Shown piece by piece: positions 1 through 34,047 of a DNA stretch of 64,000 nt. The translations under genes and the position numbers were made by a program. This stretch comes from Proteromonas lacertae. Lineage: Eukaryota > Sar > Bigyra > Opalinata > Proteromonadidae. The stretch is taken from positions 1 to 64,000 of the forward strand of contig NGBS01000326.1 of the NCBI GenBank assembly GCA_002245135.1, given 5' to 3'. Numbering within the stretch: the stretch's first letter is position 1; each line of letters begins with the position of its first letter. The notes beneath the pieces are model-generated. The model worked only from the letters and a program-made list of their open reading frames with translations, was not told the origin of the DNA and ran no database searches.

Positions 1-3000
1 TAAAACATAATCATTTTCATTTGACACTTTTACATTAAACACTCCATTACCATCACCAATAGTAATATAATCATTATCTTGACATTTAACATCATATTTT
101 ATTGGAATATCACCAAATACTTTTACAGCTGGTTCAATAATCTTATCACTACTACCTATACCAACAAAATATCTATAAACATCTTTAGAATAAGAACATG
201 GCACAAATGGTAATGGTGGTTTAGTAGTTGGTATTTCTGTTTTAGATGGATCTTCAGGTGTTGTGTCTTCAGGTTCGGTGGTTGGAGCAGCGGTTGTAGG
301 GGGTAATGTACTTGGGTAAGGTTGTAGGTAATTCTCACAATATGTTCCATTTGCCATTCTATCAACATCATCTTTTTCATCAGAGTCTGTAATAAAGGAA
401 ATAACTAAATTAGATGGTATTTTGCCATTTTTCCATCCATTTACAAAGAATTTTCCAGTATCTGAGCTATAACTGACATTGAAGTAATTAATTTGATGAA
501 CATTTAATTCGTTTACATGATCTTGTTCTGGACATATATTTATATTATATGCTTTACAGTCATTTAATACTTCTTTTCCCAAATCACAAAAGCCACTATT
601 TCCTTCAACATATTCTTTAGCTTCATAGTTATTACCATATGAAGCAAATGTTATTGAAACATTATATACATTGATAGCGTATATAGTTGAATTATAGAAT
701 ATGAAATTATTATCAGTTAAATATAATGTATCAAATCCTTCACCTTTAAAATTAGTGACTTTATATAAGCACCTACTGGAATTCTATTTCTTTTACAATT
801 CGTTAAATCGCTGAATAATTGAATTGTTGCTAAATCATCACAAAATAACTATCATAAGGTGTTGATTCTATCTCTCCACTTGCATTAACAGACACTTTAA
901 AACCTTTACCTTCACCTTCACCTACTAAATCTCCCAAATCTGTTTCATTATCATTAATAAATTTTCCATTTTCACCACAATAACCACTTAAATCTTCTAT
1001 CATCTTGAAATTATCATAAAAAGATCCATCATTATCATTTTCTTAGTAAAGTTGTAAGTATATACTTTCTTTCCTACTGTATAATACATTATTGTATCAT
1101 TAATATAAGCAAGTGAATCTTCTTTATTAGTAAATCCAATTATTGATCCATCTAATATATTTTTATTGTCTAAATTACAATAATCATTATGTGAATAAAT
1201 ATTGACAGTTTTTAAAGCAGTTTCATTGTATTTGCAGTTAAAAGTCTCTTTATCTAAAGACATATACGTAATCTCAACTGTCACATTCTTATCTTTGACA
1301 ATACTCTCATTATCTTCATAGAAAACAATTTCTCTAATTTTGTGTTGATTATCATTAAGACTTTTATTGAAATGTTTATTTTCACCATCACAAAAACCTG
1401 TTCTTTCTTCAATTAATGCAACATAATAAAACATACTTCCACTTATATCACGCTTATTGTTTATTCCTTCTAATCTATAAACTGCTATTGATTCTTCACC
1501 TAAATTATCTACAATAACCATTCTATTATAAGCGAAATACATTGTATAATTTGATTCTAAACTATCACCTGAAAATTGTTTTACATATAATAATCTATTT
1601 CTCATATTCATAAATATTCCACTTAAATGATTATTAACTACATTCCTTGAAGGATTTTCAGTTTCATTACTAACAACCATACCAGAATATCCATTAGGAG
1701 ATCTTACATTCAATTGTCTAGTTGATGCATAATATTGTATTTCTGGTTTAACTAATTGAGATGCTAATTGTGGTTTAGATGTAGTATCATCACAGAAAGT
1801 TGGCTTATAATAATCACTATTTTCACAAGTACTACATATTCCTTGATTTGTATCACACATTCTGATGAATTTTGTTGGAATGTAAATTGATTTTGAATTA
1901 GTTGATTTCTTTGTTACATTATATACATAAGAATATTCGTTATGGATATAAACATAGTTGAAATCTGTTAAAATAATTGGTTTTGGTTATTTTTGATCTT
2001 TATATAAGAATTTGTATGAATATAAGTGATACTTCTACTGCCATTTGTTTATTCATTATTGTTGTAACATCTAATTTATTATCATCACTTGAAACAGTTA
2101 TATTATAATCATCAAAATCTACATCTTTATATACAATTTCTATTTTTCCAATATTATTCTAATAATAAATGATTCGTGTATTAATCCAATAGTGTTATTT
2201 GATTGTTTCCATTCTCCTGATCTATCACAAGATCCACTTAATTCTACATCCATTTTCTATTTCATAACTATTACCTTCAATACCAATTAATGGATTAACA
2301 TTCATTTTATAAACATTCGTTTTATAAAAATCATACACTACAAATCTATCTTCATTAATAAAATATACTGTGTTATCATGATAATTCTGTATTGTTAAGT
2401 AAGTGCCAAGTGGTAATCTTTTCTTTTCACAATATTCACCTTTTATATAATTATCTATTACAGTCTTTTTGCTTGGATCTGCTATTAAAATAATTCTATA
2501 ATTTTCTGGTCTTATCAATTTAATAGTCTTTGAATTAACATATTGAATATTAAATGAACTTTGAGTCAATATTTCACCAATACATCTTGTTGGATTTCCT
2601 TCATTTTCAACACATTTATAATCAGTATTACACTTCATTGATGATTTAGAAATCACATTTCCAAGTGTATAAGAATTACCTCTTCCAGATGGAGCTATGC
2701 CTTTAATCATTTCATGAACAAATACTTCATAGTTTCTAATATGAACAAATCGATTATCTGTTAAATATAACTCAGTCATATTGTCACTTGATAGTATTTG
2801 GAAATAAGTATCTGGTGGTACAAAGGATCCTTCACAATACTTTGATTCTATTGGATTTAATATCTTATTAATTGTATCTCGTTCTGATTTACCTATTGAT
2901 AATAATATTATATATGTATATATATATATATATACTTGCTTCTCTAATTTCTAGATTCTTATTCTCACCTACTAATGAATATTTCTCTTCATCAGTCACA

Positions 3001-6000
3001 GGATCATATGCATATTCAATAGTTATACTTGTTTCAGCTACAGTAGTATTATCACATCCATTTCCTTCTATACTACAATTAGCAAATCCATCACTGTTAC
3101 AACTACCTGACATGTCTATATTATATTCTTTTGTAATAGTATAAACACTTCCTTTATCTGTAGCTAAAGATTTTCTGTAACGTTAAACACATAGAAATAG
3201 TCATCTTTCATCACAATAAAATGATTCTCTGTTAAATATTTTACAGTTCCATTATCAATAATCACCAAATATTTATTATCTTGAACTGCATTCTTATCAT
3301 TACAAGCAACACCTTTCAAAATAGGTTTTATTACTTTACTTGCTTCAAATCCACCATATTCACCAGTAAGATTAACAATTGATGTGGTAATGATTGGAGC
3401 AATATCAGAAGTATTATATATTAGTTTAAATGTATCATCATTAAATGGTTTTAACTCATTAATAGTTTCATTGCATGGTGAAATTTTATTATTAACTGTA
3501 CAATTCTTTAAAATAGAATTTTCACATTTACCTGATAGTAATTGATCCATTTCACCAATTTTATATTCTGAATAAGTATTCATTTGTGTTTTTGTAATTC
3601 TAAATGCAACTATTTCTTTAGTATCATTATTCCTCTGTAATAAATAATTATCAGTAAGATAATATTCTTCTTTTCCATCTATATTCTTCAATATAATATA
3701 TATTCCATTTGGTACTGTTTTATCATTCTGATTATTACATGGTTTACCATATATTGAATCAGTTATTCTCTTCTTTTGTTCAGGTAATGTCATTAATAAT
3801 GCATCTCTTTTTCTAAATCACTTGTTAATAATAATACAGTATTATTCACTACAGCTGATATTGTTATATTGCCATTCTCTGGATATCTTTTACAAATAGA
3901 TAGATTTGGATTATCAATACAATTAGTAAATATACCATCCATACATTTACCACTAAATGATAAATCTCTTGAATATTCATCAGGTTGGATCTTATAAAAA
4001 CTTTCATCTTTATTATCTACTACTGTTTTTTCTACTTTATAAGATGCAACACTACTATCATCTTTATAAAAATACACTACTCCATTATCTCCTAATAATA
4101 TTTCGACATTATTATTATTTGCTTCAGCTTGATTGTTGAATGATATGAATGAATTTTCTGGAACTTTCTTTCCTGTGCAGAATGTTCCATATATATAACT
4201 ATATATTCCTTCTATATCTTCAGATTTAGTTAAATTGGAAATAGTAAAACCTGTTAAATCTTCTTTACCAGTTATGTTGACTATTGCATATGTAATAGAC
4301 ATTTCATCGTTATCATTTGTTGTTACATTTTGACTAATTGTTATATTCAAATTCGTTGAATTCTTTACACATTTTTCATTTTCATAATCCTTTAAACATG
4401 AAGTGAATTCTTTCTTTTCTGGATCACATGTTCCTGATCTTTCTCTAATCATATTCTCTTTAACTGAATAAATTGTACCAACCACATCACTCTCTTTTTT
4501 AGTAATAATTGAAGTAATATTATAAACTTCAATTGTGTTTGTATCTGTTACAAACACGGCAGTAATATTATCCAATAAATATATTGTATTATTTCCTTTA
4601 GAAATCTTCAATATTGAACCATTTGATACTCTTTTCTTTTCATTACAATATCTTCTCTCTAAAATATCATTTACATCCTTGTAAACTTCATTATCCTTAA
4701 GTATAGGAACAGCAGTATAACTTCTAAATGGATTATTTGTAGAAAACTTTACTTCATAATTATTTTTATCATTTTTAACTGTTATAATGAATTTATCATC
4801 ACCTTTCATACATATATTTGAACTATAATAAGAACAATAATTCATAGTTTCATCAATACATTCTCCACTTTTACTTTCAATATAATTATTAATAGTAAAC
4901 ATAGTTTGAAATGATGTAGGTGTTTTTGTTATGTTATATACTTTAACATTATTCTCATTTAATATAATCACTTCATTTTGAGTGAAATAAGTAGTAAAAT
5001 CATTATCAGATGATTGTAATTTCACATAAACTGAGGAAGGAACATAATTATAATAATTACAATTAAAGCCCATTAAATAGTCATCCATTTCAACTTTATT
5101 ATTTGTAATATCTGTTAAAGTATATTTATCTCTATCTGTGGTACATATATTCTCATTGGTATATAATCTTTTGAAACAAGTTATTGTTACATTTTCTACT
5201 ATATTTGTATCTGTATTATCTTCACATTTCTTTATACTGCCCTTAGTGGATCCTATACAACATCCAGTTAAATCTTCATATCTTGAATCATTATTATATG
5301 ATATTTTAATACCATATTCAGGTTTATATTCAACTTTAGAATCTGTGATTATTCTGTAATTATTTGATGATGAATTGATGAAAATATAATAAAATGAATT
5401 GGCATAGATTGTTACATCATTATTTGTTAATTTGTATGTATTACTTCCTGTTATTTGTTTATTACATTCTTTACCTTCAATGATTCTGTCAATCAAATGG
5501 ATTGTTGTGATATTACCATGTTCGTTTAATATTGAAGAATGAGTAAATCCTTCTGAAGTTAAAACTCCATCTTTGTATCTTACATTTATTTCATTAACCT
5601 TCTTTTCAGTAGAAGGTGGTATTATTGTTCCATTTTCACATGTTCCACTTATTCCACTCATTAATGTTCTAATAATAAAATTTGTTCCTAAGTTTCCTCT
5701 CTTTGAATCTTCTCTTGTAAGATTATATACATAATATTCATTTGCATTAACATAATGAACATAATATTTATCAGTTATATAATGTTTTTCAACTACACTT
5801 TTACTCTCAGAAATTTCATCATTATACTAATTCAAAATATTGTTTCAATTTAACATTCTCTGGATCACAATAAGTATTATTTATAAATGAATTTATATAA
5901 CTTTCATCATCACTTATCTTATTTATACTTTCAACTTTATCAAAACTACCATCATCATTTTTAACATATTCAATATTTCCATTGATATAATCATAGTATA

Positions 6001-7331
6001 AATAAATCACTACATTATCATTTTGACAAGTAATAGAACTGCAATTTTTGAAACTATTATCATTGTCACATTCACCACTCATATTATCATATCTTTTAGT
6101 TGAAATGATCTTAGTTCCTTTTATATCAGTTGTTGAAGATATTTTATAATCATAAACTGTATATTTTGAATCTCCCTTTGTATAAATCATATAATCAGAG
6201 ATGTATAAATGTTCATTTTGATTCATTGTAATGTTGATATTCATATCGATAGGATGGTAATCTTGGATTAGCACATACTTTACCTAATTTGAATTCATTA
6301 ATCATGTTTATTGTATTTATATCTATTATGCTATAAAATAATATAATTATACCTTCATCATCTATGATGTTTGCTTTATAACCTGACATATCTACTAAAC
6401 CTAATTTGCCATTTTCATATTTAATTTTGATTTCAACAATTCCTGTCTCATTTACACATTTACTTGTATCTTTTTCATCTACTGTACAATTCACTAATGT
6501 ATTATCTTTACATGATCCACTAATATCTGAATTTACACCATCTGCTTTGTATGAAGTATAATCTTTTGAACTACTGTCAATAGTAATATTATGGACATAA
6601 AAATATCCATTCATTGACACAATATACTCAGATTCAGTCAAATAGTAAATTGGATTGTCCAAAGGAGAAGTTTCTGTGTATATCATAATCATCATTTCTG
6701 TTGGTACACGAAGTCCATTACAGTAAGAACGATCTAATATCTCATTCGTTAATTTCACATCTTTTTCTGATGCAATTGAAACATTGAACTCTTTATTACA
6801 TGAATAATTACCATCAACGTTCAGTGTGATAATAGTATCATCTATAAATAGTAAAATTAAATAATAATACTGAAATCTTCGAGTTTTATATCTTCTCCAC
6901 ATAGTTTATCATCATTCTGGCAAGATGTAAATTTTTCATTGTCTGTACTATATCCATCACATTTTCCACTCAATTCTTTGGATACATTACCCAATATGTA
7001 CTTAATGTTGTTACCTAGAATAAATAAAAATATTATTCAATACCTTCAGTAATTGTTGTTACATCTACAACTATAACATTCTCATTGTAATCAATCTTTA
7101 TAAAATGTGTGTTACTGAAATATATATTGGATGTATCTACTTCTTTTGATGTAAGTTTAAATAGTTGAACATTTTCTTTTTCATTTCTATCCAAATTTCC
7201 TAACAACAACGAAATATAAACAAATATACGATCTAACAGACTTGCTGAAACATCCCCTGTAATTATTACCAACAAATAGCCTTAAATATAAAATACAAAA
7301 TTATACAAGTAAAGAGTATAATGTTTTTCAT
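1..7331 (-). CDS. Secreted cysteine-rich repeat glycoprotein (partial, 3' end outside window)
   Basis: Long multi-exon gene running off the left edge. I place the start at 7331 because the first residues form a signal peptide (MKN, then a hydrophobic stretch ending near GDVSA) once a 26-nt GTATAA...AAG intron is removed; an in-frame Met at 7457 would add about 42 residues. The rest is a tandem array of about 140-residue units. Each carries an SG(T/K/E/S)C motif, an NC or C..C pair, a (Y/F/R)C..(K/R)(V/L)P segment, a YLT(D/E)(N/S) strand and a (V/Y)YN(I/V)T strand, with many N-x-S/T sequons. This suggests an extracellular adhesin or wall protein; I do not recognise the family. Introns are supported near 7030, 6870, 5800 and 2930. 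One-base breaks of frame near 6240, 3800, 3165 and 2270 lie mostly in A runs, so the gene is either decaying or contains assembly indels. Confidence 0.7.
500..6990 (-). repeat. Tandem protein-level repeats of about 430 bp
   Basis: Within the secreted glycoprotein gene, SGxC-like motifs recur on the minus strand at roughly 6965, 6520, 6080, 5645, 5265, 4860, 4430, 3945, 3525, 3110, 2640, 2230, 1400 and 975, a spacing of about 400-480 bp. The copies are similar in protein but strongly diverged in DNA, so this is an old domain array and not a recent satellite. Each unit appears to carry about four to six cysteines, which suggests one small disulfide-stabilised domain per unit. Confidence 0.65.
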
Positions 7332-7606
7332 GAGAGAAATAACAATCCAACTGTTACTTGGTAATTTACCTAATTGCATGTCAGATACTTTCAAATTTTT
7401 ATCATTTTTTAATTCTTTTGGTAGAATAGGATTATCACTTTCATATTCAAAATTCATTTAACCAGATTGGATAATTAAATTAATTATTTGACTATTCTAA
7501 GTATCATAAAATTTTGTAGATGAAAGAGTCTTTTGCTGTTTATAAAAACCATTCATTTAGTATACTCATACAAAACAAGTTATTAAACTATTAATATTAC
7601 ATATAT

Positions 7607-8476
7607 TTATGTCTCAATTTTATCATCCACAATAATGGAAGGAGGACGAAATGGTGAATATAAAAAGGATCTTTGGATGGGATTAAATGCATATTTAGCA
7701 GTACCAGTGTTCTTCTGAGCTACACTCAATCTTACTCCATAAATTCTCATACAATCAATTAAATGATCTCTCTGCTCTCCTGATATTGAATGGCTCTTAT
7801 AGAGTGAATTGACCTGTTGAATTGTGACTGACATAGAAGTCCTATCTTTACCACTTTTACACATTATCACATGACCTCCATTCAACATCGAAACAACATC
7901 AGTAAGCAATAAAAATATATTATACTCTTTAGAATGTGATGAATTAACCAGTGAAATTACTGATTACATTTCAATTAAAGAAATTTCGAAAAATTAGTGT
8001 TAAAAAAAAAGATATTAATAGTTTTTCATCAATTTCATTATCTGAACATGGTATTAATTCAGGATTACATAAATTAACCATTGAAATCAATCCCTTTTCA
8101 AAAGATCCTGCAAATGTAACACCACTTTCATTACATCCATAATTTGGACGATTTTTATATAGCATATATCTTAGTGTATATTTATTTAACAATGTCAATG
8201 CAACGTTATTGATTTCTTTCTGTAATATGCATTTTCCCTATTATAATAAACCATTTATAAAAAATAAATACTGTAATTCTTGAAATAACATCATACCCAT
8301 TGACTCCTTGGTTAAAAAACACTGGAACTAGATAAATATAATCTGATGTTAATTCATTATCATCAAAATCAGCTTGTAATATAATTGGAATTGTTATAAC
8401 ATATGTAAATACTGAACTATGGTGAATTTCTTCTTTGATTGAGATATTTGTATTATCTACTTTACTAAAACCATTC

Positions 8477-8523
<47 letters not shown>

Positions 8524-11242
8524 TAATTATAGAAATAGAAATAGCTATACTTTATCTGATTTTGTATAGATTAGCTTAAAAGCGAAAGCATTAGTACATA
8601 AATAAGTTGAATATGCATCTTCAATCATCCCATTCTCATTACCAGAACATGATAACAATGATTCAATAAAACACTATATATTTATATTTATATTTATATA
8701 TACTAAATATCCAATTGATTGATATTGCTTAACTATTTTTACATAATCTTTTGAATATAATAATTTAGACAAATGAATAGCAAAATCAGTAATTATTGTA
8801 GATAATGCTTGAGCTATAGTTTTATCTAATCTTTCTCTTATATTCCAATAATATAAATTTTCACTCTAATCACAATATATTTATATTATCATATTTATAC
8901 AATTGGTGGAATTGATAACTTTCTTAAATCTTTAACAATAGAGTTGATACCTCCATGTTCAAACTTCATTGTGTGAGCTGCTGGAATTCCACTTGTTGTA
9001 AATACTTCACATTTAATTGGAAAAACAAATGGCCAATCAGATTGAAGTATTTCTTGTGAATATTGTATCATACACAACATAATCAGAAAAGTGTAAATTG
9101 GTTGGTATAAATTGATACATTTTTTCTGTCTTTAACACACTTGGTTTGAATTTTCCATCATTAATTTTTCCTTCTTTACATACATTTTCACATATTTTAA
9201 TTGATTCTAGATGATTCTTTATTCTTTCCAATAAATACTTATTCTCTTCAATATTAGACAATAGTATATTATTAGTCTGAATAACATCACCGAATGAATC
9301 TTTTCTTATTAATTTTGAAGCTTGAACTGATGCAATTTCTATTAAACTATTCACTTCATCCATCATCCTTGTTGTGTTTGATTCTGCTATTTTCATCCAC
9401 AACAATGGAATATTAAATGATAATCTATATTATAATAAATAAATTTATATTTTACTCTGTTTCATATAAAGTTTCTTTTGAAAGTATTGGCTCATTTGAG
9501 TCATTCCATACAACATAATATTGAGTATTACAGGAAGATTTGTTTACTGAGACAAGACCCATAAAATATACCATCAATTCAATATTATTTGAGTTATGAA
9601 ATGAATATGGCTGTTTCAATTTCAATAGATCTTCTAATGCAATATCATTTGAGAATATTGTATTATTTGATTGTACTATTTTTTCATAATCATAATTTTC
9701 ACACTGGTTTACTTCTTGACCATATAAAATAAACAGAAATTGTATATTATTAACTTCAAAAGTAGTAGATGATAAAGGAATTTGGAGAGTGTATTCATGT
9801 TGATTTAACTCATATTTAAGTGCAATTGTATATTTTAGAATCTTCCGATATGGTAATGATTCAGTACAACAAACCTATAACAAAATAATAACAATTATTA
9901 TTATTATAAATATATACCAAATTTGGTTTATTGTTACTATCACTAGAATCAATTTTATATAATAACATTTTGTAAAACTTAAATCTTTTAGGTAAACTTG
10001 ATACACGAACAGCAAACGAAGCAGTATGCTTAAAGTGTTGATATGATTCAAGACTAAATGAACTTGTCTTTACATTATAACTTTTCAAATACTTCTCTTC
10101 CGTTGTATATGACTTTTTACTATTATTAATATTCCTATCGCCAGCAATAAGTGGTGTTGTTGTTGAATTATCATCTTCTTTTCTTATATCATTAATGATA
10201 TATGGTAGAGTATGTTTATTTGCCTATATTATATAATAATAGATAAATATAGATAAATATATATACGTTGTACTGTATATCTCGATATAATAAACAAAAT
10301 GATACTCCCATACAAATCATAAAATCGCTTATTGGATAATACGAAACAAAATACACAATAAATAGTTTATCATCTAAAATATTTGTTAGATTTCTATTAA
10401 TTTATATATATATATATATATATATATACAATATCTGTGAAATTGTTTTAATAATTATTCCAGCAAAACAAACACACAACCAAAGTGTATATGTCCTTAA
10501 ATCATTTATACGATACTAAAAGAGTATAAATTATGAATCTATGTATATACAATTCTGCTAATAGAAACAATATTGATGTAGAACGATGCACCTCCATATA
10601 CAGCTGCTATGAATATAGCTAATTCTAAACTTGAATAAACAATATAAAATTTTCTTACTTCACCATCTGGTGATTTCTAAGATGAAAGAAATACTACAAT
10701 TAATACTATATCAATTAAATCAGATTGGAAAAATGTGTAAATAATTTCAATTAATATGAAAACCATGAGAATATATGCAACTCTAAATCGCTTAGTATAA
10801 TAAGGATCAGTTAATCTAATAAATAAATAAGATTTATATACCTGCTCCAATAAAGAGTACATAAACATAAACACATAAATATCATTAAATCGGAACATAT
10901 AGTGAATCTTCTAGTGAAATAAACATTTATGTTTAAAATATATACAATAATAAATGATATTTTTCTTTTAAATCTGTTACTTTACTTATAAACCCATATA
11001 CAGTGGTAATAATTCGAAATGTTGAGAATATAATTACCATTAACGATGAATTGAAATTCCTAATTTGCAACATAAAAAGCACACATAATACAATTTATCA
11101 AACCTCATCTTTCCATTAAAATAGTGGTAGGTATTTATCTATTATAGTAGAATGTTTTTCATACAGTAGAAACAATAGCGACGCTTGTATAAGTAAAAAA
11201 TGATATTCCATCACACGCATAAGACTCAATTTCAGGTAGCAT
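7607..11242 (-). CDS. Seven-transmembrane receptor fused to inositol polyphosphate 4-phosphatase (INPP4-like)
   Basis: One reading frame, joined through about 12 short GTA...TAG introns, links two modules. The N-terminal part (start MLPEIESYACDG at 11242) has seven hydrophobic helices, ending with a YYPISDF helix near 10330. No stop or gap follows: the chain continues through the 10262-10220 intron (TTTPLIAGD linker) into a C2-like region. Then comes an INPP4 body with FKPSVLKTEK, IPTNLHFSDY, IPAAHTMKFEHGGI and YLVPVFFNQGVN. The C-terminus holds the CX5R active-site loop CKSGKDRTSMS and the family-typical tail KYAFNP...PFRPP...KIET. Known INPP4 enzymes remove the 4-phosphate of PI(3,4)P2. The inference is a receptor whose cytosolic output is phosphoinositide dephosphorylation. 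A one-base frame break near 9062 and an unresolved join near 7960 remain. Confidence 0.8.
8477..8521. repeat. (AAT)n microsatellite inside an intron
   Basis: About fifteen uninterrupted AAT units. It lies inside an intron of the 7TM-INPP4 gene, between the exon ending ...YTKSDK and the exon starting NGFSKVDNTN. This makes that intron longer (about 70 nt) than its neighbours. Confidence 0.8.
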
Positions 11243-11763
11243 AATCAAAAAAACAATTTGTGAAATATATTCGTTTTAAGTGAAACGGATTAATTTTAGA
11301 AAACACAAAATTGAATGAAGTGCAGAATGAGTATATTTACTTTAGTTTAGAATTTGCATATACTATAGTCTTTTATCATATCCACATTTGTAAATGCAAC
11401 TACTGCTACACTAATCCATTCAAGATTTCTTTTGTTTTGTTTTTTCTTAATTTTTAATATTTCTCTATCTTATATAGGATTTTAATAATAACATTTTATA
11501 TTTTTATATCTTAATCTTATAGTTATTATTTGCAATAAAAAGGTGTTAGATACTTTTTTATCTTAGATGAAAAGGTAAAAAGTAAGCTTTTAATATATCT
11601 TTGTATGAAAGCATCATTACTTTGCAAAACATTCGTAAAGTACCATTTCATTATTTTTGTCAAAAATCCACTCCAGACAAAGTATATTTTGAATTATAAC
11701 ATTAAAAATGTTTAATAAAATAGATTATTACATTTGTCTAAATTTATACACTAATTATAATGA
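11243..11763. other. Intergenic region between the 7TM-INPP4 gene and the MGNC-family gene
   Basis: About 520 bp of AT-rich sequence with no convincing coding segment on either strand. It must hold the 5' region of the minus-strand 7TM-INPP4 gene and the 3' end of the upstream minus-strand MGNC-family gene. I see no RNA gene or clear motif. Confidence 0.5.
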
Positions 11764-13000
11764 TTAAAACATATAGAAATTATATTCAGGAAATTGATTT
11801 TTATCAGCAATAACACCAGCACCAACGCTTATTAACTCCAAATTCCTTGAAGTATAAATTTCTGTTTGAGTTAACTTGTTTATTAGAAATCCTTTATTCA
11901 TATCTACAACTTTCTGATTTAGATAAATTATATATTGTTTCATATCCATTAAACTAAATTCTTCCAACATTTGTTTTCTTATGTACAAAATATCCATAAA
12001 ACATATTCTCAAGCATTCTATAACCCTAACAACACTCATATATTCATCATAATTTATTCCATCTAAAAAGCGGTAAGATAAAGAAATATTATCCTCTATA
12101 ACATCAATGTTATTTTTGTAGAATTTTTCATCAGTTGTGCAATCAATATTCATGTCTTCTTTCAACTTTCTCATTCTATTAAACTGAGAATATTCTTCTA
12201 ATGACATTCTTTTAACTACATATATATTCTTATCTTTCACCACTGTAAATCTAATTTCTAGTTTTTCTTTTAGAGATAAAAACACTGTATAACATCCATC
12301 CTTGATATCTTGCTTTTTTAGAGAATATAAATTATTTTTATAATATAAACCAATAATAGCTGCAATTGAATAATCAATATATTTAAAAATAAAATCTTCT
12401 TTAACTAAATTCATTTCTTGCAAAGATAGTATATCGCCTGTATATAATACTAGCATTTTGTCGTTACTCTCTTCTACCAGTTCTTTATATTTTTTCTTTA
12501 TTACATGTAATTTTTGAAGAATTGTATAATTATGAGAAACTTGAAAATCAATTTCTTTTATATAACCTTGCTTCAACTTCATTGCTACATTAATCCTATC
12601 CTCCATCATTAATATCCCAATAAAAGGATTATCAAAAGATTTTCTATTTAATATTACACTTTCTGAAAGGATTGCTTGGAAAAAAACAATCACTAATTAA
12701 TACTTTATGACCTAGTTTAGCTGTATTTTCTATATTTGCATTTTCATCACTTTGGATTATGTTATCTTGAGTTAAATAGTTCATTTGTTCTTCTGTTATT
12801 TCTCTATTAAATGATCCATCTTCATGTTCTGTTTGAAATATAGCATTATCAAAATCAGTAAAAGGTTCTAATCAACATATATATATATAAATTATTAATT
12901 AGTAATAATTTCAAAAATTTTAATTTTTATTTGAATTATTAGAAAGATATAAATTAAACATACCAATTGCACTGGATGATAAATATATACAATTACCCAT
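11764..13000 (-). CDS. Unknown protein of a two-copy MGNC (predicted N-myristoylated) family
   Basis: The start at 13000 gives MGNCIYLSSS, a classic N-myristoylation plus palmitoylation start, supported by an AAGCTTGGCTTG element 38 nt upstream and by an equivalent MGNC start in the diverged paralogue at 18210. An intron of about 115 nt follows codon 12. The body, about 350 residues, is hydrophilic and ends with a TEIYTSR motif and a PEYNFYMF tail, both conserved in the paralogue. I recognise no domain. Near 12690 the frame shifts by one base in a run of seven T; alignment with the paralogue shows the protein should continue through it, so this is a lesion or a consensus error. A role at the inner face of a membrane is inferred only from the lipidation signal. 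Confidence 0.6.
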
Positions 13001-13461: not shown

Positions 13462-16400
13462 ATGTTGTATTTGATAGATAAAGTGTTATATGCTAAATTA
13501 GCGCATGATATGAAAGTATTTGAATTAATTTATTTTTATTAGGAGAAAGAGAGAATAGATAGGAAGTGTTAATGAGTTAGATTTAGTTGTAGAATATGAA
13601 AATGATATTCAAAAGTTGAAAGTGTTTAATGTATGTGAAATAAAAGAGAAGCAAATATTAAAATTGTTAGAGAATAACTCCTTTATGTCAGATTATTGTT
13701 CCTCCTTCATTTGCCGATGTAGAATGTATGATATGAATGATTATGGTGAATATATGATATATTGCAGAGAATATTACAGTAGAGACTTGAAAGAGATAAT
13801 TCAACATAAATCCTTTTCAAATCATGAAATATGTGTTATAATAAGTTTCAATATGTGATGATGTAATGGTATTTAGTGAATATGAGATTGTAGTTGGTAA
13901 TTTGAAGAGTAGTAATGTGATATATGAAGAGAATGGTGTTTTAAAGTTATGTGATTTATTGTTGAATGAATTGAGAAAAGAAGAAGATATGAGAATATAT
14001 GATATGAATTTTAAGAGCCCAGAAGAGTTGAATGGATTAGAAATGAATGAGAGAAGTGTAATTTGGTCAATTGGTTGTATTTTATATGAAATGATTTATA
14101 AGAAATTACCATTTAATGAAGATGATAATATGTTTAAAACAAGAGAGAATATTGTGAGATGTAAATACAATTATGATGTAGAATGTGATGATGTGATGAA
14201 AGAGATGATATGTAGAATGTTGAAAGTGAAGAATGAAGATAGAATGAGTTTGAAAGAGTTGAAGAAAGAAATGATAAAAATGAGTGAAATATTGAGAGAT
14301 AAAGATAATAATGTAATGATATGTGAAGAAAGAAAAGAGTTCTTATTCAATAATGATAATGCAATTATAAAATTTCCAATAGTTTATCCATCAAAATATT
14401 ATATTGAAAGTGAAAAAAGAGAAGTGATTAGAGATGATATGATAGAATCCTACAATAGTCAACCAAACGAAAGAATATTGTCAATATTATTGATGATGAA
14501 ATTATTTAAAGAAGAGAAATCAATTCATGATAAATTGAAATTTCAAATACACCACAAATGTAAAAGATGTGAAGAATGTAATTTAGATGAGATGATATTT
14601 AAAATAGAAAGTAGTTATTTAGATGAAGAAATTATTCAAATATATTCTAGTTGTATATGTTTCTGTGAAGAAGGAATGAGCTATTTTTTTAGAATATTGA
14701 GAATAATCAATCCAACTTTAATATTTTGTATGATTTTAATAATTATGATTTATTTAGATTTTATTCACATACCAATTATTCGTCAGTCATTGTTTGTATC
14801 ATATTTGACTGGATTATCAAATCTACAAACATTAGATTTATCAAATTGTAATCTTACTTCCTATTTCATTGAATTATTTGTTAAATCAATTCCATTGATG
14901 AAATTGAAATATGTAAATCTTTCATGTATTTATAATGATATTGTTATTTTATGAAATAGCTAATCCAATTGGTGTGAAAGGATTTAAATTGTTACTTCCA
15001 TATTTGAATTTATTAATCAACGAAAATAATGAATTGAATCTTGAAGGAATGAATTTAAATGATGAATGTATGATATTATTATCATCAGAGTTATATAAAT
15101 ATCCACATCTTAGGGAAATATATATTAGATACAACAGAAACATTCATTCTCAAGGATTAAAAGCATTATTTTCTAAATTTCCAAATATATATTGTGATGT
15201 TTGTAAAGAATTACTGATTGATAAAGACATTCCTGAATTAGTCAAATATATAAACCAATACAATGAATTAGATCTGATTAATTCAGAAATAGATGATGAT
15301 ATTTTCAAAACATTCATTTCATTAAGATCAAATGAATTGAAAGAAATAAATGGATTAGATTTGAGTTGTATAATTTGATATTTTCATAATATTTAGATAA
15401 TGAATTAACACATAAAAGTATAGAAATACTGATAAACAATCTATCATCATTACCGAATCTTAAATATCTCAAATTATATGGAAATGAGATAGGAGATGAA
15501 GGAATGAAAATATTATCTCCACATTTACATTTATTAGAAGATTATGATAATAAATACTATTCTGATTATATTCTTTTAAATATAGCAGAAATAGGATTAT
15601 CTTCAACTGGATTAAAGTATGTATTTGATGGTTTAAAGATTATTCAAGACAAATACAGAAGAGAAGGTTCTAGTGAATATTACTATGATGATGAAGATTA
15701 TGGAGATGAAGATTTTATTTCACTTAATATTAGTAATAATAATATTGATTCAGATGGAATAGAATAAATGATAAATTATATGAAAGAGAATGATATTATT
15801 AAAGAATTGAATATTCAAAGTATATTTATAGTAGTTTTTAATTGGTTTAATGATAATCCAATTGGTAATGCTGGATTTAAGCTATTAATAAACAATTTGA
15901 ATGTTATCAATAAGTGGAATAGATTAGATTTCAGTAATATCTCAATAGATGATGAGAGTGTAATATTATTGTCTAACAATTTAGATTCATTTTCTAATTG
16001 CGGCATAATAGATTTAAATGGAAATAATGTCAATATAAATGGATTAAAAGCAATTTGTTCCAAATCATTAGAAAAAGAAGAATATCCATTTATAAAAATG
16101 AAATATTCCTTAATGACAAAAGAAGAATTTGAATATTATTTGGATTATTGTATTAAAAAGAAAAGAAAAGACTATAAAGAGTATGATTTTTCCAGTATAT
16201 TATCTGTGTTTATAATGAAATAGATTTAAATGTGAATGATTCTCACATTTCATTAATAAAACAGATTAATTATGAAGAACTTTATTTATCCAATAACAAG
16301 ATTACTTCTAATGGATTAAAAGAATTAACAGGTTCTTTTCCAGAAAATGTTAAATATATCTCAATATATAATAATCCAATTGGAGATGATGGGATAGAGA

Positions 16401-21448: not shown

Positions 21449-23815
21449 ATGGAATCAACAGCAGATGATAATAGTGATAAGCCAGTTCATGAAGGTTGGA
21501 TAAAAAAACAAGTATTGTTAAATCTATAGTTATTAAATAGGGAGACTTTTTAAAAACATGGAATGACAGGTATTTTAGATTGTATCCTGATTCTCTTCAT
21601 TATTTTTCATCGGAAACTTCTAAATCCTCAAAAGGTTTTATTTATCTCAAAGATATAACTGATATTCGTACAACTTCCTTTAAAGATAGAGATTATTGTC
21701 TTATAATTACATTATTAGTTGGTAATTCTTATTTATTGGCACTTAGATCCTCAGCTGAACAGAGAATATGGTTTCAACATATTTGGAAAACTCGTAATGC
21801 TGCAATTGCAGAAATAGGCAGACAAACCATGGAAACAGATGAAGCAAAAAATATGAAAGTGTTCACAGCAGATGAAGTTCATTTATTATGTAAATCAATA
21901 GTCACAGCCAAGAGTGTAATTAGATTAAAAGATTCGTTAAAATTATTAAGAAATTGTGCAGATTATTTATCTCCAGATGAATTACTAGAGCAAAGGCAAC
22001 ATTTCACATCAGTTATTACACAAAGTCAAGCAAATTGTCCAGAGATATGGGATCATGGGTTAAAGAGATTAGCTGATCAAATATTCCACAGAATTAGTCC
22101 TGAGTATATAGAATCATTAAAGAAACACATTGAACAAGAGAAATTACATCCACATAAAAGAAACAGTGTAACAGGTAATTCAGTAGTAGCACAAATTGTC
22201 AATATTGAACAAATTTATAAATTTGGTAAAAGACTTGGCTCGGGTACATTCAGTACAGTTCATATAGGTCAAGACAAACGTACAGGTGAAAGATTTGCAA
22301 TAAAATGTATAAGAAAGTGTAAATTATCAAAAAATGATGTTTCTGCTTTAATCACTGAAGTAGATGTAATGATGAAATTAAAATCTCATCCAAATATCGT
22401 CAATTTTATGGGCTTCTATCAGGACACAAAATATTACTATTTAGTTCAAGAGCTATGTTTAGGTGGAGAATTATTCAATAGAATAGTGGAAAGGACTTAT
22501 TATAGTGAATATGAAGCTAAAGAAATAAGTAGAACATTAATCGCTACTTTAGGTTACTGTCATGCCTTAGGAATCGTTCATCGTGATTTAAAACCTGAGA
22601 ATATATTACTAGCTGATAGAGATGATGATTATTCATTAAAAGTAGCTGATTTTGGATTTGCAAGACAAGTTGCTTATCAAGATAACAATTTATTAAAAAC
22701 AAGTTGTGGATCACCAGGTTATGTTGCTCCAGAAATTCTACAGAATAAATTATACGGCAGTAGTGTAGATATGTGGAGTTTAGGAGTTATTATATATATA
22801 TTATTATGTGGATTTCCTCCATTTCATAATGATAATCAAGCAATATTATTTAATTTAATAAAGAAAGGAGAGTATAAATTTCCATCTCCCTATTGGGATC
22901 ATGTCAGTAAAAACGCTAAAGATTTTATCTCTCATTTATTAGTCGTTGATCCTGATGGAAGATATACAGCTAAACAAGCATTAGCTGATCAATGGTTAGC
23001 TCAAAATCCACCTGTTTTACCTGATGCTGATAGAAGAGATGGAATGAATAATAACACATCTTCAGGATTAGTTCAACAACAGCAACAACCTAATCTACAA
23101 TCAGCTGTACAGATGCTTGAACAATTCAATGCAAGGAGAAAATTAAAGGCAGGAATGAGAGCTGTAAGAACAGGAATAAGATTGAGAAAGTTATCAACTC
23201 CATTACAAAGTAGAAAACCAACAACTTCCAATATGGATGATAAGAAAGAAGATTCTTCCTCTACTTATATATCTACATTCTGGAAACGTATATATATTAT
23301 TATTTATTATTTTCTAAATAGTTGATACAACTAAATATCACATAGTAAGAAGTGCTCCAGATTTATTAACACCTTCAATTGGTAAATTACCAGCTGGTTC
23401 AAGGATTATAGTAGATGATGATATAATCAATATGTATGGTTGGTGGTTAAAACTATCAGTGATGTGTGCAATAAACTCAGGTGTTTCTGATCCTTCAAGT
23501 GCTTGGGTGATGGGTCAAGCTCCAGGACAATCTGTTTTATTTGAGAGAGAAATTGCATTGAAATATGAGAGTTTACTACCAAGTGATGATTTACATGCTG
23601 TTTATGAAGAACCTGTATTAGAAGGAGGAGTTCAAATAGGTCAGATTAATGGAGGAAAGACAATCTTAGGTGTAACAGTAGTTGATAATAAAGATGGAAA
23701 ATGGTTACAAGTGTTTGCCAATCAATTTGATAATGATCATGAAGGCTATACGATGATTAGTGATGTAAATGGGAAAGTATATTTTCACATGATAGAAAAT
23801 ATTGAAAGAAATTAA
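21449..23815 (+). CDS. PH-domain serine/threonine kinase of the CaMK group
   Basis: Three exons (21449-21511, 21541-23287, 23322-23815) add up to exactly 767 codons plus stop. A PH domain occupies residues ~15-110 (EGWIKKQGDF...WNDRYFRL, ending with RIWFQHIW). A helical linker follows, then a complete kinase domain at ~244-511: GSGTFSTVHIG glycine loop, AIKCIRK lysine, IVHRDLKPENILL, DFGFAR, a GSPGYVAPE activation segment and a WSLGVIIYILLCGFPPF C-lobe. This is an active CaMK-type enzyme, expected to be recruited by phosphoinositides. The C-terminal ~240 residues hold a Gln-rich linker, a basic segment resembling a calmodulin-binding helix, and a compact domain of unknown family encoded mostly by the last exon. 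That last exon is duplicated alone at 44951-45401. Confidence 0.9.
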
Positions 23816-26480
23816 ATAATTCAATATTTAAAATATATAATTATTCTATATATATATATATATATAGGCTATTATTATTATTATTATTTTATATCTAATT
23901 TTCCATCTTCATTTATCATCATTGTTTTATTTGTTTTTATTTTTAACACATCTTCTTCTTCTTCTTCTTCTTTATCTGAAATACTTTCACTTCCTATTTC
24001 ATTGTTTGATATTTCATTTTTACTTTCATCACTATTATTATTCTTATTGAATCTAGATGATAATCTTGTTTTGGGATTTTCATAAACATGAAAATTTCTT
24101 TTGAAACATCCTTTACTTTCTATATTATGATGTTCATCTTTACATTTTTCCCATTCTTTACCATAAACATAATTTCCTCCTCCTTTCGCTAAAAATGGAT
24201 GAAATATACAAACATTTGGAGATAAAAAGTCATTCAAACCACATTTTATACATGTTTTTGTACTATTATGAGAAGATGAAAATTTGTTTGTTTTATTGTT
24301 TGAATTGATTGTTGTTGTTGTTGTTGATGGTAATGATGAGGATAATGATTTTGATGTTGTGTTCTTTATTTCTTTTATTATATTATTCTCTGGTAAAGAT
24401 GAAGAAAATAACAAACATTGACTTTTTGATTTCTTTTTCAATTTTTGATTCTCGTAATATTCCGTTAAATCTTTCAATTTCTTTTCATAACTACTTTTTA
24501 ATCTTTCGATTATTATCTTGTTGTTATTATACATTTCTTCTTGAATATTATTACATTTATATTCTAACATCTTATTCAATTTATCTGGTTTTATCATGGA
24601 ATCCATTTCTTTTTCATAATATTCTTTTAATTCTTTTATATATTTTTCATGACTTTCATTTAATAGTTTTAATTTATTCTCTAAATCAAATATTGTCTTT
24701 TCATATTCTTTCATTATTCTTTCATTTTTCTCTTTCTCTTTTTCTATTTCTTTATTATGTTCATTCTCTTCTTTATTCAGTTTATCTTCATTCTTTTTCA
24801 TTATTTCTTTCAATTTATCATTCTCTTTCTTCATTTCTTCATATTTCATTTCATATTCTTTCTCTAAATCTTTTCTTTTGTTATAATATTCATATTCTAA
24901 ATCATTCTTTATTTCTTTCACTTTTATCTCATTTTCTTCTCTTCTTTTTATCATCTCATATTCTAATGATTCACTACTTTTTACACTACTTTCTAATTCT
25001 TTTATTCTTTTATTATTATCTTTTATTACTTCATTCAACTCATTCATTTTCACTATTAATTCTTCTTTTGACATTTCATTCATATCTTTTTCTTCATTTT
25101 CTATTTTCATCTCATTTTCATTTTTTGATTCATTCTCATTTATTTCTGGATTTAATATCTTTTCTATATTCTCTAATAAATCTAATAATATTATCTTTAA
25201 ATTGTTTAATATATTCTTCTTTTCACTTTCTTTGTTCTTCATTGATAATAAATATTGTTTTATTGATTCTATTGAATTTGTTGTGAGAAATGAAGATATT
25301 GGATAATCAAATGATGATAATGATTCTTTATTATTACTCTCTTCTCCTTTAACTTCTTTTATTTCTTCATTATTATTATTATTTATATTAACATTTGGTG
25401 TGTTTATTATTGAATTTGATTCACTTTCATTTATCTTTGTTTTGGGAATTAATCTATTGCTTTTATTATTCTCTTCTTTTGTTTTATTATTATTATCACT
25501 TTCACTATCTGTGAATAGAATTGAATGCAGTTCTTTTAGTCTATTCTCTAAATGATTCACGATTTCTACACTTTCATTGTTTTCACTATCGGCATCACAT
25601 GAATATAAACTATACACATTATCATTTGAGTTTATAACTGGATTTATTGAAGAGATTTCATAACCACACACTTCGGAGGATATTTTATTTTGATTATTAC
25701 AGAATGAACAATTGTCATATGTATGAGTTGATTTTAACTTTTTCAAATGGTTTGAGGAAGAAATGGAGGAAGAAGAATCTGAGGAATATGGAATATTCAA
25801 AAATATATCTCTATCAGGAGTTTCATTTTTATAACTACTCTCATATTTCTTTAAAGTAGTCTTGTTTTTGATTTTCTTTGTTTTAGGTTTATCTGAGTAT
25901 GATATTTCAATATTATCTATGACCATTATATGAATACATAGGATTATACATTGTTTTAATGAATTAGTGTTTGAATGTCTTTGTTTCATTTTGAATTTTC
26001 AAAAATGCTTGATGAAAAGTTTGCAAAAGTATTTTGATAAAATTGATTATATTCCTTTAATAATGATACAATTATAATATTATTAAAACAATGAACAGAA
26101 ATAAAGCATATTGTATATGTATCGAATATAAAAATATGAATATAATCTACATTTACGAAAAATAGAAGAAGAGGTATTAATGGTAGTTGTGAAGATAAAC
26201 TATAATAATTTAAATTATGAATATCATTTTATGTTAATTATGCATGAGTTCTTGAATAAATATCGAAAATTGTGAAAATAGAGTATAATAATATTTATAT
26301 AAAAATAGAATAAATGTTTCACAGTCACTAACATTCAATTCATATATAATAGAGAAAGAATATTGATATGAAGATGAAGAATATAGATTTTGTGAAGAAA
26401 GGACTAATATTTTCAATTGTATAATGATTTAAAAGATGTACTTAAAATCCTCATTTACTCAATAACTTAATTATAGAAGT
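23322..26480 (+). repeat. Duplicated block B, copy 1 (about 3.1 kb)
   Basis: Contains the last exon of the PH-kinase, the coiled-coil gene and about 490 bp of its upstream region. The same block lies inverted at about 42300-45401, and its promoter plus first 500 coding bases again at 34310-35560. The 45401 edge falls inside coding sequence, just after the codons for LLTPSIGKLPAG. Confidence 0.75.
23884..25989 (-). CDS. Coiled-coil protein with C-terminal Cys/His cluster, copy 1 (intact)
   Basis: Single exon of 701 residues starting at 25989. The N-terminal quarter is Ser/Asn-rich. Residues ~230-510 form a long, highly charged coiled coil dominated by Glu, Lys and Asn. Near residue 580-640 sits a compact cluster, CIKCG, CIFHP, W..C and GC..NFH, resembling a small zinc-binding module. 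The C-terminus is acidic (a run of Glu) and then basic. No family recognised; a scaffold role is likely. It lies tail-to-tail with the PH-kinase, 68 bp apart. A frameshifted copy lies at 42781-44882 and a truncated one at 35059-35574. Confidence 0.85.
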   Translation of the reverse strand: MKQRHSNTNSLKQCIILCIHIMVIDNIEISYSDKPKTKKIKNKTTLKKYESSYKNETPDRDIFLNIPYSSDSSSSISSSNHLKKLKSTHTYDNCSFCNNQNKISSEVCGYEISSINPVINSNDNVYSLYSCDADSENNESVEIVNHLENRLKELHSILFTDSESDNNNKTKEENNKSNRLIPKTKINESESNSIINTPNVNINNNNNEEIKEVKGEESNNKESLSSFDYPISSFLTTNSIESIKQYLLSMKNKESEKKNILNNLKIILLDLLENIEKILNPEINENESKNENEMKIENEEKDMNEMSKEELIVKMNELNEVIKDNNKRIKELESSVKSSESLEYEMIKRREENEIKVKEIKNDLEYEYYNKRKDLEKEYEMKYEEMKKENDKLKEIMKKNEDKLNKEENEHNKEIEKEKEKNERIMKEYEKTIFDLENKLKLLNESHEKYIKELKEYYEKEMDSMIKPDKLNKMLEYKCNNIQEEMYNNNKIIIERLKSSYEKKLKDLTEYYENQKLKKKSKSQCLLFSSSLPENNIIKEIKNTTSKSLSSSLPSTTTTTINSNNKTNKFSSSHNSTKTCIKCGLNDFLSPNVCIFHPFLAKGGGNYVYGKEWEKCKDEHHNIESKGCFKRNFHVYENPKTRLSSRFNKNNNSDESKNEISNNEIGSESISDKEEEEEEDVLKIKTNKTMMINEDGKLDIK

Positions 26481-30163: not shown

Positions 30164-33100
30164 TTAATTAATAAAGAAAACAATTTCTTCTTCTATTATC
30201 TTACCGTCAACATTTAACATTATAGTTAATAAACCATCATCACTTGCTTTTATTTCCATTTCTATTTCTTCAGATTCATGTTCTCCAATTATTATTTCAC
30301 CTAGTTCTGTCTGATCTGTTGAATTCATTTTATCTTGATATATTTTGATTGAATTACATCTTTTGTGACATCTTATTCTCTTACTACCATAAAATGGTAA
30401 TTTAGTTTGTCTGTTTATCATATTATTCAATATATATCCATCAACCTTATATTTCTTTCCATCTTCACAGTTAATTGATGATTTATCATTAATCTTATAT
30501 TTTTTATAATCTTTATCATATAGCGATTTAGAATATACAGCACATCCTTTACTCACATCTTCTTCAGTATTTTTGCTTTTATGAATTTTTGTATTCTCGA
30601 AATTCTTCCTCAGTAATTCTTCTATTCGAGGTATTAAACTTGATCCACCAACTAATATGAAATAATCAATTTCAGAATCTTTCAATCCAAGTCTATTTAA
30701 GGAGTATTTAACAACATCTATTGTTTTTTTAAACAAATCTTCACATAAATCATTAAACTCTTTTCTTGTTATTGTTTTCTCATATTCTTTATCGCCAAAT
30801 TCTAAACTGATTGTTACTTCCTTACATGATGATATATGTTTCTTTAACTCTTCACAAGATGTATGAATTCTTAGTTTATATCTATCATTATCACTAACAT
30901 CAATTCCTATACTCTCTTTTATATCTTTCTTTATATATTCTTCAATTCTCATTGTTATATCTTCTCCACCTAAATGCTCATCTCCAAATGTTCCCAATAC
31001 TACAACATCTTTTCCTATGAATTCAATAATACTAACATCAAATGTTCCTCCTCCAAAATCATAAACCAATATTTTCCCTTTGTTATTCTCTATTTCATTA
31101 CTAAAAATATATGATAATGCAGCTGCTGTTGGTTCTGATAGTAAATCAACATTTTCTAAACCTGATTTTTCTGCTGCTTCAATAGTTGATCTTCTTTGAT
31201 TATTATTAAAAGTAGCTGGAACTCCAATTATTACCTGAATATCAGATAAATCTACTTCTCTATTGGTTATTTGAGGAAATGAATATGAATTAATATAATT
31301 AATTATTTGTGATAAAACATCAACTGGAGATAAATACACTACTGAATTGTTGTGAATTATTTTATAATATGGATAATCATCTTTCTCTATTATTTCAAAT
31401 GGATAAGAGAATAATTCATTTTCATTAATATCGTATATTTCTTTACCAATAAATCTCTTTGAATCATACAATAATGTTGATTCCCCTTTTATAAGATTTC
31501 GATTCTTTTGAGCTGATAACCCAAAATCTAATTTTAAACTATTATTTTCATAACAAATACAAGAAGGAAATGAATTATTTGAACCATCATTTGGATTAAT
31601 AACATGTATATTTGAATCAACTCCAACAAATGCAGATGATGAATAAGTTGTTCCTAAATCAATTCCATAAGATATTTCTGGATTTTTTATTTGTTTAACA
31701 CCAATGTTAATTGATCTTAATAATATTTCTTTTATTCTGTAATAGTATGAATTCTCATCCTGACAAGAATGAGAATACATTGTTCCTCCGATAGAATATA
31801 TTTCTTCAAGATTAATATTATTTAGAATTGGAATATTATGAAAATTTGATTGAATTAATTCTCTATAATAGGGAATTCTACTAGATACTCCAATTGGAAT
31901 AATAAAATCAATATCTATAACTTTCGCATAATCAATTGATATATTAATAACATGCATTGTTCTATCTATAATTGGTGAGATTATCCAATTAAAAAATGAT
32001 CTACTAAATTCAAATTCATATTTATCATCCTGCAAATCTATCTCAATAACTGTTTCATTAAATACTAATAAACAATCAATTGCTTCTTTACATTTCCTAT
32101 GAATTAGATATCTTTTTCTCTGATTGATTATCACATCATCACCTTTACGCTTTCTAATGTCTTGAATTATATGATCTTCTACAATAGATAATATTTTATA
32201 ACCACTCACTTCATTACTCTCACAATATGATATTAATCTCATGTCATTTCCATCCAAGTTAAATATTGATGATGTAAAACTATTATCTCCAAAATCAATA
32301 ATTAATATATTGCATTTCTTTTTATTAATTAACCCATAACCTATATATGCAAATGCTGCAGCAGTTGGTTCTTTAATCAGCTTTTCCACTTTTAATCCTA
32401 CTAATTCAGCTGCTTTTCTAAATTCTTTTATTTGATTATAAGTAAAATTAGCTGGAATTGTTAATATCAATGGAAAATTATCTCCTATCTGATTAATTGA
32501 ACAATCTTTTACACATTTCAGAATCATTGATAGAATTTCAGTTGGAGAATAATACTTAGTTTGATTATTATACATCACTTCATATAAACAAAATCCATCT
32601 TCTCCTTCAACCAATTTGTATGGTTTATGTTGTAATTCAATTAGATCTAAGTCTTTATACTTTTTACCAATATACTTCATTGCTTCTGAAACTATCGAAT
32701 AATTACTATTATATGATCCAACTAAAAATAGATTACTATTCTTTGAAAAGCTTACAATATTGTTTAAGTTTCTTTTTCCATCATAAAAAGAAACAAATTC
32801 AACATTATCTCTTCTATAATAGGTTGATAATACAGAATTAATTCCTACGCTTATACAAAATGAAAGTGAATTAGGTGGAATATAATCAATTAATTTAATT
32901 CTTTCAATTCCTTTTATCTTATTATTGGCAAATACTGCACAACCAATTGCAACAGCTTCATCTGGACTGATACTTTTTAGTAATGGTATTTCATTAATTT
33001 TCTTCTTCAATCTCTTTTCAAATTCAGGTATTGTACTACTTCCTCCTACACAAATCACATAATTAATATCTCTTATATGTAGATTTTTTCTTTCTAATAA

Positions 33101-34047
33101 TATATCTACAACACTAAGAGTTTTATTTAACATTCTATTAATCAATAGTTGAAGCATTGTTCTTGAAATCTTTTTATTAAAATCTTTATCTTTACCTAAT
33201 GAGATTGTCATTTCATAATCATTTGTAAATGATAAATACTTTTTTGCTTCTTCACAAGCTTTATGAACCCTTATTCTTTGTTTAAAGTTTTGATTTACAT
33301 CAATTCCAAGTTGATCTTTTATTTCTTTCTTTATTTTTTCTTCAAATATTCTAGTTATTTCTTCACCACCTATACTATCTTCACCATATCTTCCTATAAT
33401 ACGAATCTCATTATTCTTATACTCAACTATTGCGGCATTAAAACAATTACCACCAAAATCACATATCAAATACTTACTATCTCCTTTCTTTATTAATTGT
33501 TTTTCATTCAATGTTATATACCAGCTTTCTCAGCTGCTTTAATTATATCATTTTTTTGTTGTTCTTTAAATGCAGATGGAATTCCAATCACAACTTCTAC
33601 ATCATCATCGGTTATTGTTTCACTAGCAACTCTTTTTAATGTTATTTTATTTACATCTTTTATTATTTCAGCTGTAATGTCAGTAGGAGAAAGGTTAATC
33701 TCTTTATTATTGTATATTAATTTATAATACGGCAATTCATTACTTTCAACTAGTTTAAAAGGGAATGATTGTAAATCCTCATTATTTATCTCACACCATT
33801 TCTTCCCTATATAGTGTTTAGAGTTGTATAACACTGTAAAGTCAGTATTGGAAATTTTGTTTAAAGCAGCACTACCAATCATTTTCTTATCTGATTTACT
33901 GTCATAACACACATAAGATGGAAATGTATTAGATGAATAAAGTGAATGAAGATTAACAACCCTTGTATAATTATTATCATCAACATATGCAGAGCAGCAT
34001 TTAGAACATCCCAAATCAAAGCCATATGATAGTTTTGGCTTAGACAT
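30164..34047 (-). CDS. Triple-NBD Hsp70-like protein
   Basis: Two exons (34047-33522, 33483-30164; 38-nt intron) sum to exactly 1281 codons plus stop. The protein holds three Hsp70 ATPase domains in tandem, at about residues 1-375, 380-765 and 770-1155, then a short tail (1160-1281) that resembles only part of a beta substrate domain. NBD3 is orthodox: DLGTTYS, VYDFGGGTFDVS, LSEPTAAALSY, VGGSSLIP. NBD1 has altered loops (DLGCSKCCS, CDFGGNCFN) and lacks the EPTAAA segment. NBD2 keeps EPTAAAFAY and DFGDNSFT, but its first loop is lost (GINSVLSTY) and VGGSS has become IGVSS. Ordinary Hsp70s have one NBD and about 640 residues. A regulatory or scaffolding role in which only NBD3 hydrolyses ATP is my inference. 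Confidence 0.9.

Follow-up and report, generated by a model that had tools for sequence, protein, structure and literature searches.

A predicted seven-helix protein fused to an INPP4-type phosphoinositide phosphatase, probably from a stramenopile outside the oomycetes

GPCR-INPPs form the third largest group of GPCR-bigrams in oomycetes, and P. infestans has seven of them (van den Hoogen et al. 2018, PMC5784254). Outside oomycetes, the available portions of that 2018 survey place them only in Nannochloropsis gaditana, which itself has no GPCR-PIPKs, and raise the speculative idea of GPCR-PIPK and GPCR-INPP working as a couple. A companion review sets models of direct activation, cleavage and G-protein coupling of bigrams side by side, in the sections available as speculation (PMC6033456). 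Oomycetes possess INPP4 and, according to the accessible part of PMC9694693, lack robust INPP5 homologues, so the enzyme part of their GPCR-INPPs is probably of INPP4 type. In the literature searched, the term GPCR-INPP occurs in only two papers, both from 2018, and among the titles listed none pointed to a further paper describing a fusion like this; the available text of a 2025 survey of choanoflagellate and related GPCRs mentions GPCR PIPK and contains neither 'INPP' nor 'phosphatase' (PMC12716839).

Here we describe a gene of the GPCR-INPP kind in the window, by which we mean the whole 64,000-nt stretch of DNA analysed. The kind of fusion is already known; what this locus adds is its lineage, its single copy and its co-occurrence with a 7TM-PIPK outside oomycetes. 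As in the published descriptions of the GPCR-INPPs of oomycetes and N. gaditana, an N-terminal seven-transmembrane (7TM) part precedes a predicted cytosolic inositol polyphosphate phosphatase domain. Unlike P. infestans and N. gaditana, with seven such genes each, there is one gene here; it has about 16 exons, and its lineage is probably neither oomycete nor Nannochloropsis. The architecture also resembles that of GPCR-PIPKs (RpkA or GK type) in joining a 7TM domain to a phosphoinositide enzyme, except that a phosphatase replaces the kinase.

Between 11242 and 7607 the minus strand, read in three frames with GT–AG splicing, resolves into a single intron-rich gene that ends in a TAA at 7607 (Table 1). 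The reading frames confirmed the strand and coordinates of the original prediction and refuted its claim of one continuous minus-strand frame: the 7TM part alone, with its eight short exons, needs seven introns, and the frame also breaks near 9,060. An intron that had been placed at 10262–10220 is present there, with slightly different ends. Introns measure 26–43 nt as far as 9425 and 30–109 nt thereafter. The spliced product begins MLPEIESYACDG..., and its seven hydrophobic stretches are spread over the eight exons; no open frame of at least 80 aa lies entirely within 10223–11764.

Table 1. Features of the fusion gene, in window coordinates
Feature	Coordinates	Strand	Details
7TM part, eight exons	11242-11165, 11138-11092, 11059-10946, 10910-10842, 10815-10707, 10676-10551, 10515-10430, 10393-10267	minus	
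Seven introns of the 7TM part	within 11242..10267	minus	26-36 nt each
Junction intron, TM7 exon to cytosolic part	10266-10224	minus	43 nt, GT-AG
Linker and supposed C2 region	9425..10223	minus	exons 10223-9918, 9874-9456; introns 9917-9875, 9455-9425
Exon entering the INPP4 body (IPTNLHF)	9037..9424	minus	one-base frame break near 9,060
INPP4 body	8016..9062	minus	exons ~9062-8901, 8865-8704, 8673-8551, 8475-8272, 8237 to 8069 or 8048
Introns inside the INPP4 body	between 9062 and 8016	minus	30-75 nt
Probable last intron	8068-7960; alternative 8047-7960	minus	109 nt; alternative 88 nt; GT-AG
Last exon: catalytic loop and KIET end, stop codon included	7607..7959	minus	
CKSGKDRT, CX5R catalytic loop	7838..7861	minus	

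The introns were initially chosen by eye for an open frame, and controls were therefore run afterwards. First, a search in which the introns were left free (GTA donors, [CT]AG acceptors, 20–80 nt) and the ends were fixed at ATG 11242 and 9064 returned as its best solution a chain of 1,851 nt that runs from 11242 to 9064 and includes the junction intron; its introns match the set picked by eye, except for the donor of intron 5 (10697 versus 10706). With GTAT donors only, the chain drops to 1,484 nt because one intron begins GTAA. Second, when the 7TM stretch is dinucleotide-shuffled 300 times, no shuffle yields a chain that reaches its end, the longest shuffled chains being 263 nt (GTAT) and 353 nt (GTA) versus 756 and 765 nt in the real sequence. 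Third, a codon score was trained on 13 long window ORFs, among which three are near-identical copies. It ranks the model's frame best across the 7TM part, with no base shuffle in 1,000 scoring as well; this frame contains no stop over its 252 codons, and the two other sense frames contain 27 and 19. The codon bias of the 7TM part is weak, with a slightly negative mean score, and in two of its eight exons (11138–11092 and 10910–10842) another frame outscores that of the model.

The junction between the two parts bears on whether there is one gene or two. A stop in the frame of the exon at 10223–9918 lies immediately upstream of it, and the first ATG that this exon offers in frame is at 9968, 85 codons in; it therefore needs an upstream exon; the exon encoding TM7 sits 43 nt away, with compatible splice sites and phase. 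Two neighbouring genes, a 7TM protein terminating just after TM7 and an independent INPP4 gene, would account for the fact that retention of the 43-nt intron ends the 7TM frame soon past TM7, and for the 26 INPP4 homologues recovered below, which carry no 7TM fusion. We nevertheless regard such a pair as improbable, given the exon without an early start codon, the matching junction that the chain without preset introns spans by itself, and the GPCR-INPP fusions that other stramenopiles carry. On the gene model, then, an open spliced chain predicted from the DNA places the 7TM region and the INPP4 domain in one protein, which supports a single gene in which a 7TM region is fused to an INPP4-type phosphatase.

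The phosphatase identity of the C-terminal part is firm at the level of sequence. A protein search with residues 560–1020, for which the INPP4 queries used coding sequence down to 8016, gave 26 INPP4 homologues at the cut-off of E ≤ 1 among 5,017 candidates, of which 25 reach 1.6e-8 or better and the remaining one has 0.94. The top match (E 1.2e-27, 31% identity over 73%) confirms the INPP4 body of the original prediction. Those with names include Paraphysomonas (taxid 36769), the diatoms Seminavis, Epithemia and Cylindrotheca, and a nematode, and one (P0010) is annotated as inositol 3,4-bisphosphate 4-phosphatase. CKSGKDR occurs in 26 of 26 homologues and in the gene itself (7861–7838); the predicted CKSGKDRTSMS and KIET tail were both found in the last exon. 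As in INPP4A, INPP4B and protist INPP4, the gene thus has an INPP4 domain with CKSGKDR, and it differs from them in its extra 7TM part and in having no recognizable C2 domain. The homologues have at most three hydrophobic segments each, so by this measure none of the 26 is a 7TM fusion.

Four pieces of the protein gave no credible Pfam match (lowest E 0.11, all far below cut-offs). A region previously described as C2-like found no credible sequence counterpart: its best Pfam E value is 2.9, PDB sequences up to E 10 gave none, and neither did the 26 INPP4 homologues. Against PDB sequences, the last exon has its best match in the Rac exchanger P-Rex2, at its INPP4-like domain (9zq7_A, E 5e-6); P-Rex1, also a Rac exchanger, matches weakly. 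In these alignments the P-Rex loops read CSSGVHR and CGTGMQR and, unlike the loop of the gene described here, lack the lysines and the aspartate found in CKSGKDR. A structure was predicted for the 117 aa of the last exon from a 27-row alignment; the model is poor, with a mean pLDDT of 63.3, and Foldseek against the PDB returned nothing for it at E ≤ 0.001, the best value being 1.5. INPP4 acts on PtdIns(3,4)P2 (PMC6563779, as available in part), and by analogy with the family the substrate of the fused phosphatase would be PI(3,4)P2.

Within the INPP4 region the frame shifts by one base near 9,060. Homologue P0001 (IPTNLHVHICEVKSATATDVYEIVTMGCPAVH) shows coding sequence on both sides of the break. 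The only GT–AG intron that would bridge it and keep IPTNLHF (9073–8992, 82 nt) was discarded, since it would cut out residues aligned to conserved positions ahead of a PAAH-like motif. A second assembled copy of window 1–9497, on contig C1010 (21016–30491), is 99.1% identical over 9,520 columns and ends within the gene at window position 9497; it has one-base gaps around 9,060 as well and is itself not clean, its many one-base gaps marking it as a haplotig or an error-rich contig end. The break and the frame-changing indels in the C1010 copy could be read as signs of a decaying pseudogene. Yet the other exons are open, the catalytic loop is intact, the last exon of the C1010 copy encodes an identical protein (100% over 117 aa), and the differences between copies are mostly gaps (67 gap columns, 20 mismatches), a pattern that suits assembly error; decay is very improbable in our estimation. 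The break is probably an assembly error; a frameshift that is allelic or real is less likely. At the last join, three GT–AG introns are possible, of which the two in Table 1 preserve the conserved ISLVNSS ahead of the catalytic loop; a third candidate, 8078–7925, loses the conserved stretch before the loop and was set aside.

Seven hydropathy peaks on both of two scales confirm the seven hydrophobic segments of the 7TM part. Loops 1, 3 and 5 carry a total charge of +7, and the N-terminus together with loops 2, 4 and 6 a total of −4; by these charges the N-terminus, only about 11 residues long, would lie outside, and the C-terminus and the enzyme would be cytosolic, although loop 2, predicted outside, runs counter to this with +2. 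There are two glycosylation motifs, NLT in outside loop 6 and NSS in predicted inside loop 1. Calling this part a receptor rests on its predicted topology. An hmmscan of it against Pfam recovered no 7TM family: the sole listing was PLAC8 (E 1.4, 10.3 bits versus a cut-off of 34.4), and PF06454 (THH1/TOM1/TOM3) was absent. PDB sequences gave no match, and the N-terminal half of the protein (7TM and supposed C2 region) had none at E ≤ 10 among 6,281 candidates, in a search that has little bearing on distant relatives.

Two candidate kinships of the 7TM part were examined within the same genome and rejected. A THH1/TOM1/TOM3 domain (PF06454, E 2.5e-9) occurs in a different protein of the genome (L029, contig C352:182637–183014); in a comparison of the 7TM part with that protein, 48 of 500 shuffles reach the score of the real sequence. 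Against pieces of two PIP kinases with upstream hydrophobic exons (L022 and L021, below), 122 and 66 of 500 shuffles are as good, so that, unlike the architecture, the 7TM parts of this gene and of GPCR-PIPKs show no detectable relation.

The lineage of the host was approached through another gene of the window, a PH-kinase with 2,671 matches at E ≤ 1e-30, 120 of them listed. Among the matches listed, other stramenopiles (Tribonema, Achlya and Aphanomyces) lead by total score, and the first Blastocystis protein is P0086; the leading proteins have two kinase domains and match twice. When the 120 matches listed are ranked instead by their best single stretch, Blastocystis proteins take the first three places, aligned over PH and kinase together. 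Only 6 of these 120 cover both domains, namely four Blastocystis rows and two unnamed ones. A tree was built of 25 rows, of which 24 were hand-picked from the 120 matches listed; in it the window protein groups with three Blastocystis proteins (99/97), and the fourth falls in the sister group. This position beside Blastocystis indicates that the host, a single-celled eukaryote, is probably a non-oomycete stramenopile on the Blastocystis (Opalinata/Bigyra) side and a distant relative of that genus, as judged from one gene, and to that extent supports the earlier suggestion of a fusion outside oomycetes.

We then consider the rest of the assembly (50.2 Mb, 1,181 contigs). No second INPP4 was found with the last exon of the gene (E ≤ 0.01) or the end of a Paraphysomonas INPP4 (E ≤ 1) as queries; both hit only the two assembled copies of the fusion gene, although an INPP4 that is strongly diverged or split into small pieces could escape these searches. 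The 7TM half was found only at the window locus, the C1010 copy matching only the later stretch. PIPK gave eleven genome matches across five contigs. One of them (L022, contig C5:62883–63257) splices to exactly seven hydropathy peaks ahead of the kinase and is a GPCR-PIPK; another (L021, contig C1162:55195–55464) has hydrophobic exons upstream that give five peaks by the same rule, making its 7TM less certain. G-alpha had twelve matches, six above the cut-off alone and one together with its neighbours, and PI3/PI4-kinase seventeen. For a 239-aa piece from a PI3-kinase pair on contig C41, the closest of the matches listed is class I (p110 gamma, E 1.3e-59), and all 60 listed of 96 are class I.

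Several features were observed alongside. The class-I-like PI3-kinase is present on contig C41 twice, in opposite orientation and with equal scores (L035 and L036, 13834–14385 and 22584–23135). On inspection of its sequence, the C-terminal third of one G-alpha (L012, contig C234:59265–60338) holds a cysteine-rich insert, approximately GPDDPGMFLDYECGICTCGGGYPNDYPCECG. The window itself contains, between 12997 and 63306, direct and inverted segmental repeats of 0.7–3.5 kb that are 80–99% identical. Some bear kinase or LRR-kinase genes (13845–14951, 40555–41433 and 61926–63179), and one inverted pair (23364–26428 / 45402–42338) carries a near-identical long coiled-coil-like ORF. On the minus strand at 30164–33529, a 1,121-aa open frame comprises three consecutive Hsp70 stretches.

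The reading that we favour, with moderate confidence, is that this fusion gene of the GPCR-INPP kind encodes a 7TM protein with a cytosolic INPP4-type phosphatase, in which the 7TM part localizes the enzyme and sensing alters its activity or its access to lipid. The 7TM part would anchor the phosphatase at a chosen membrane; that sensing by it may change phosphatase activity or lipid access has less support. By family analogy, the enzyme would convert PI(3,4)P2 to PI(3)P at the membrane housing the 7TM part, downstream of a class-I-like PI3-kinase. The 7TM part might sense a ligand and be coupled to the phosphatase without G proteins, as the original prediction proposed, and the fusion may be paired with the 7TM-PIP-kinase of the same genome. 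In favour of a receptor-enzyme are, besides the open chain, the hydropathy peaks, the summed loop charges and the INPP4 and P-Rex2 matches given above, the class-I-like PI3-kinase, G-alpha and 7TM-PIPK that share its genome and the GPCR-INPPs known elsewhere. Against it stand the frame break near 9,060, a 7TM part that matches no receptor family and has weak codon bias, INPP4 homologues none of which is a 7TM fusion (0 of 26), an N-terminal half without a match at E ≤ 10 and the poor model of the last exon; against the predicted orientation stand the net positive outside loop 2 and the one glycosylation motif in a predicted inside loop.

The main rival to sensing is that the 7TM part is a mere membrane anchor or targeting module, which would keep a constitutive INPP4 on one membrane and sense no ligand. 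Such an anchor would fit the want of any match to a receptor family in Pfam or the PDB, the chance-level likeness to the genome's other 7TM proteins (48, 122 and 66 of 500 shuffles as good) and a predicted outside N-terminus of so few residues. On the other hand, seven helices exceed what anchoring requires, and signalling phenotypes have been published for the PIPK type of GPCR-bigram (PMC6033456, in the sections available). We consider the anchor unlikely, though a serious contender, and sequence cannot choose between anchor and sensor.

A question already posed for GPCR-bigrams in the available part of PMC6033456, and called untested in that of PMC5784254, is whether the lipid enzyme fused to a 7TM domain can be switched by it in the absence of a G protein. 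The genome described here, which has a single receptor-phosphatase, few PIP-kinase genes and no further INPP4 in the searches made, is simpler than those of oomycetes with their ~44 bigrams. A non-oomycete that has both a GPCR-INPP and a GPCR-PIPK also bears on the age of the pair. More doubtful than the fusion itself is a wider reading, which we offer tentatively: with no INPP4 found besides the fused one, a seven-helix sensor may directly run the whole PI(3,4)P2 4-phosphatase step of this organism, opposite the 7TM-PIP-kinase, and the fusion, if truly present on the Blastocystis side of the stramenopiles, would have originated before the main stramenopile lineages diverged.
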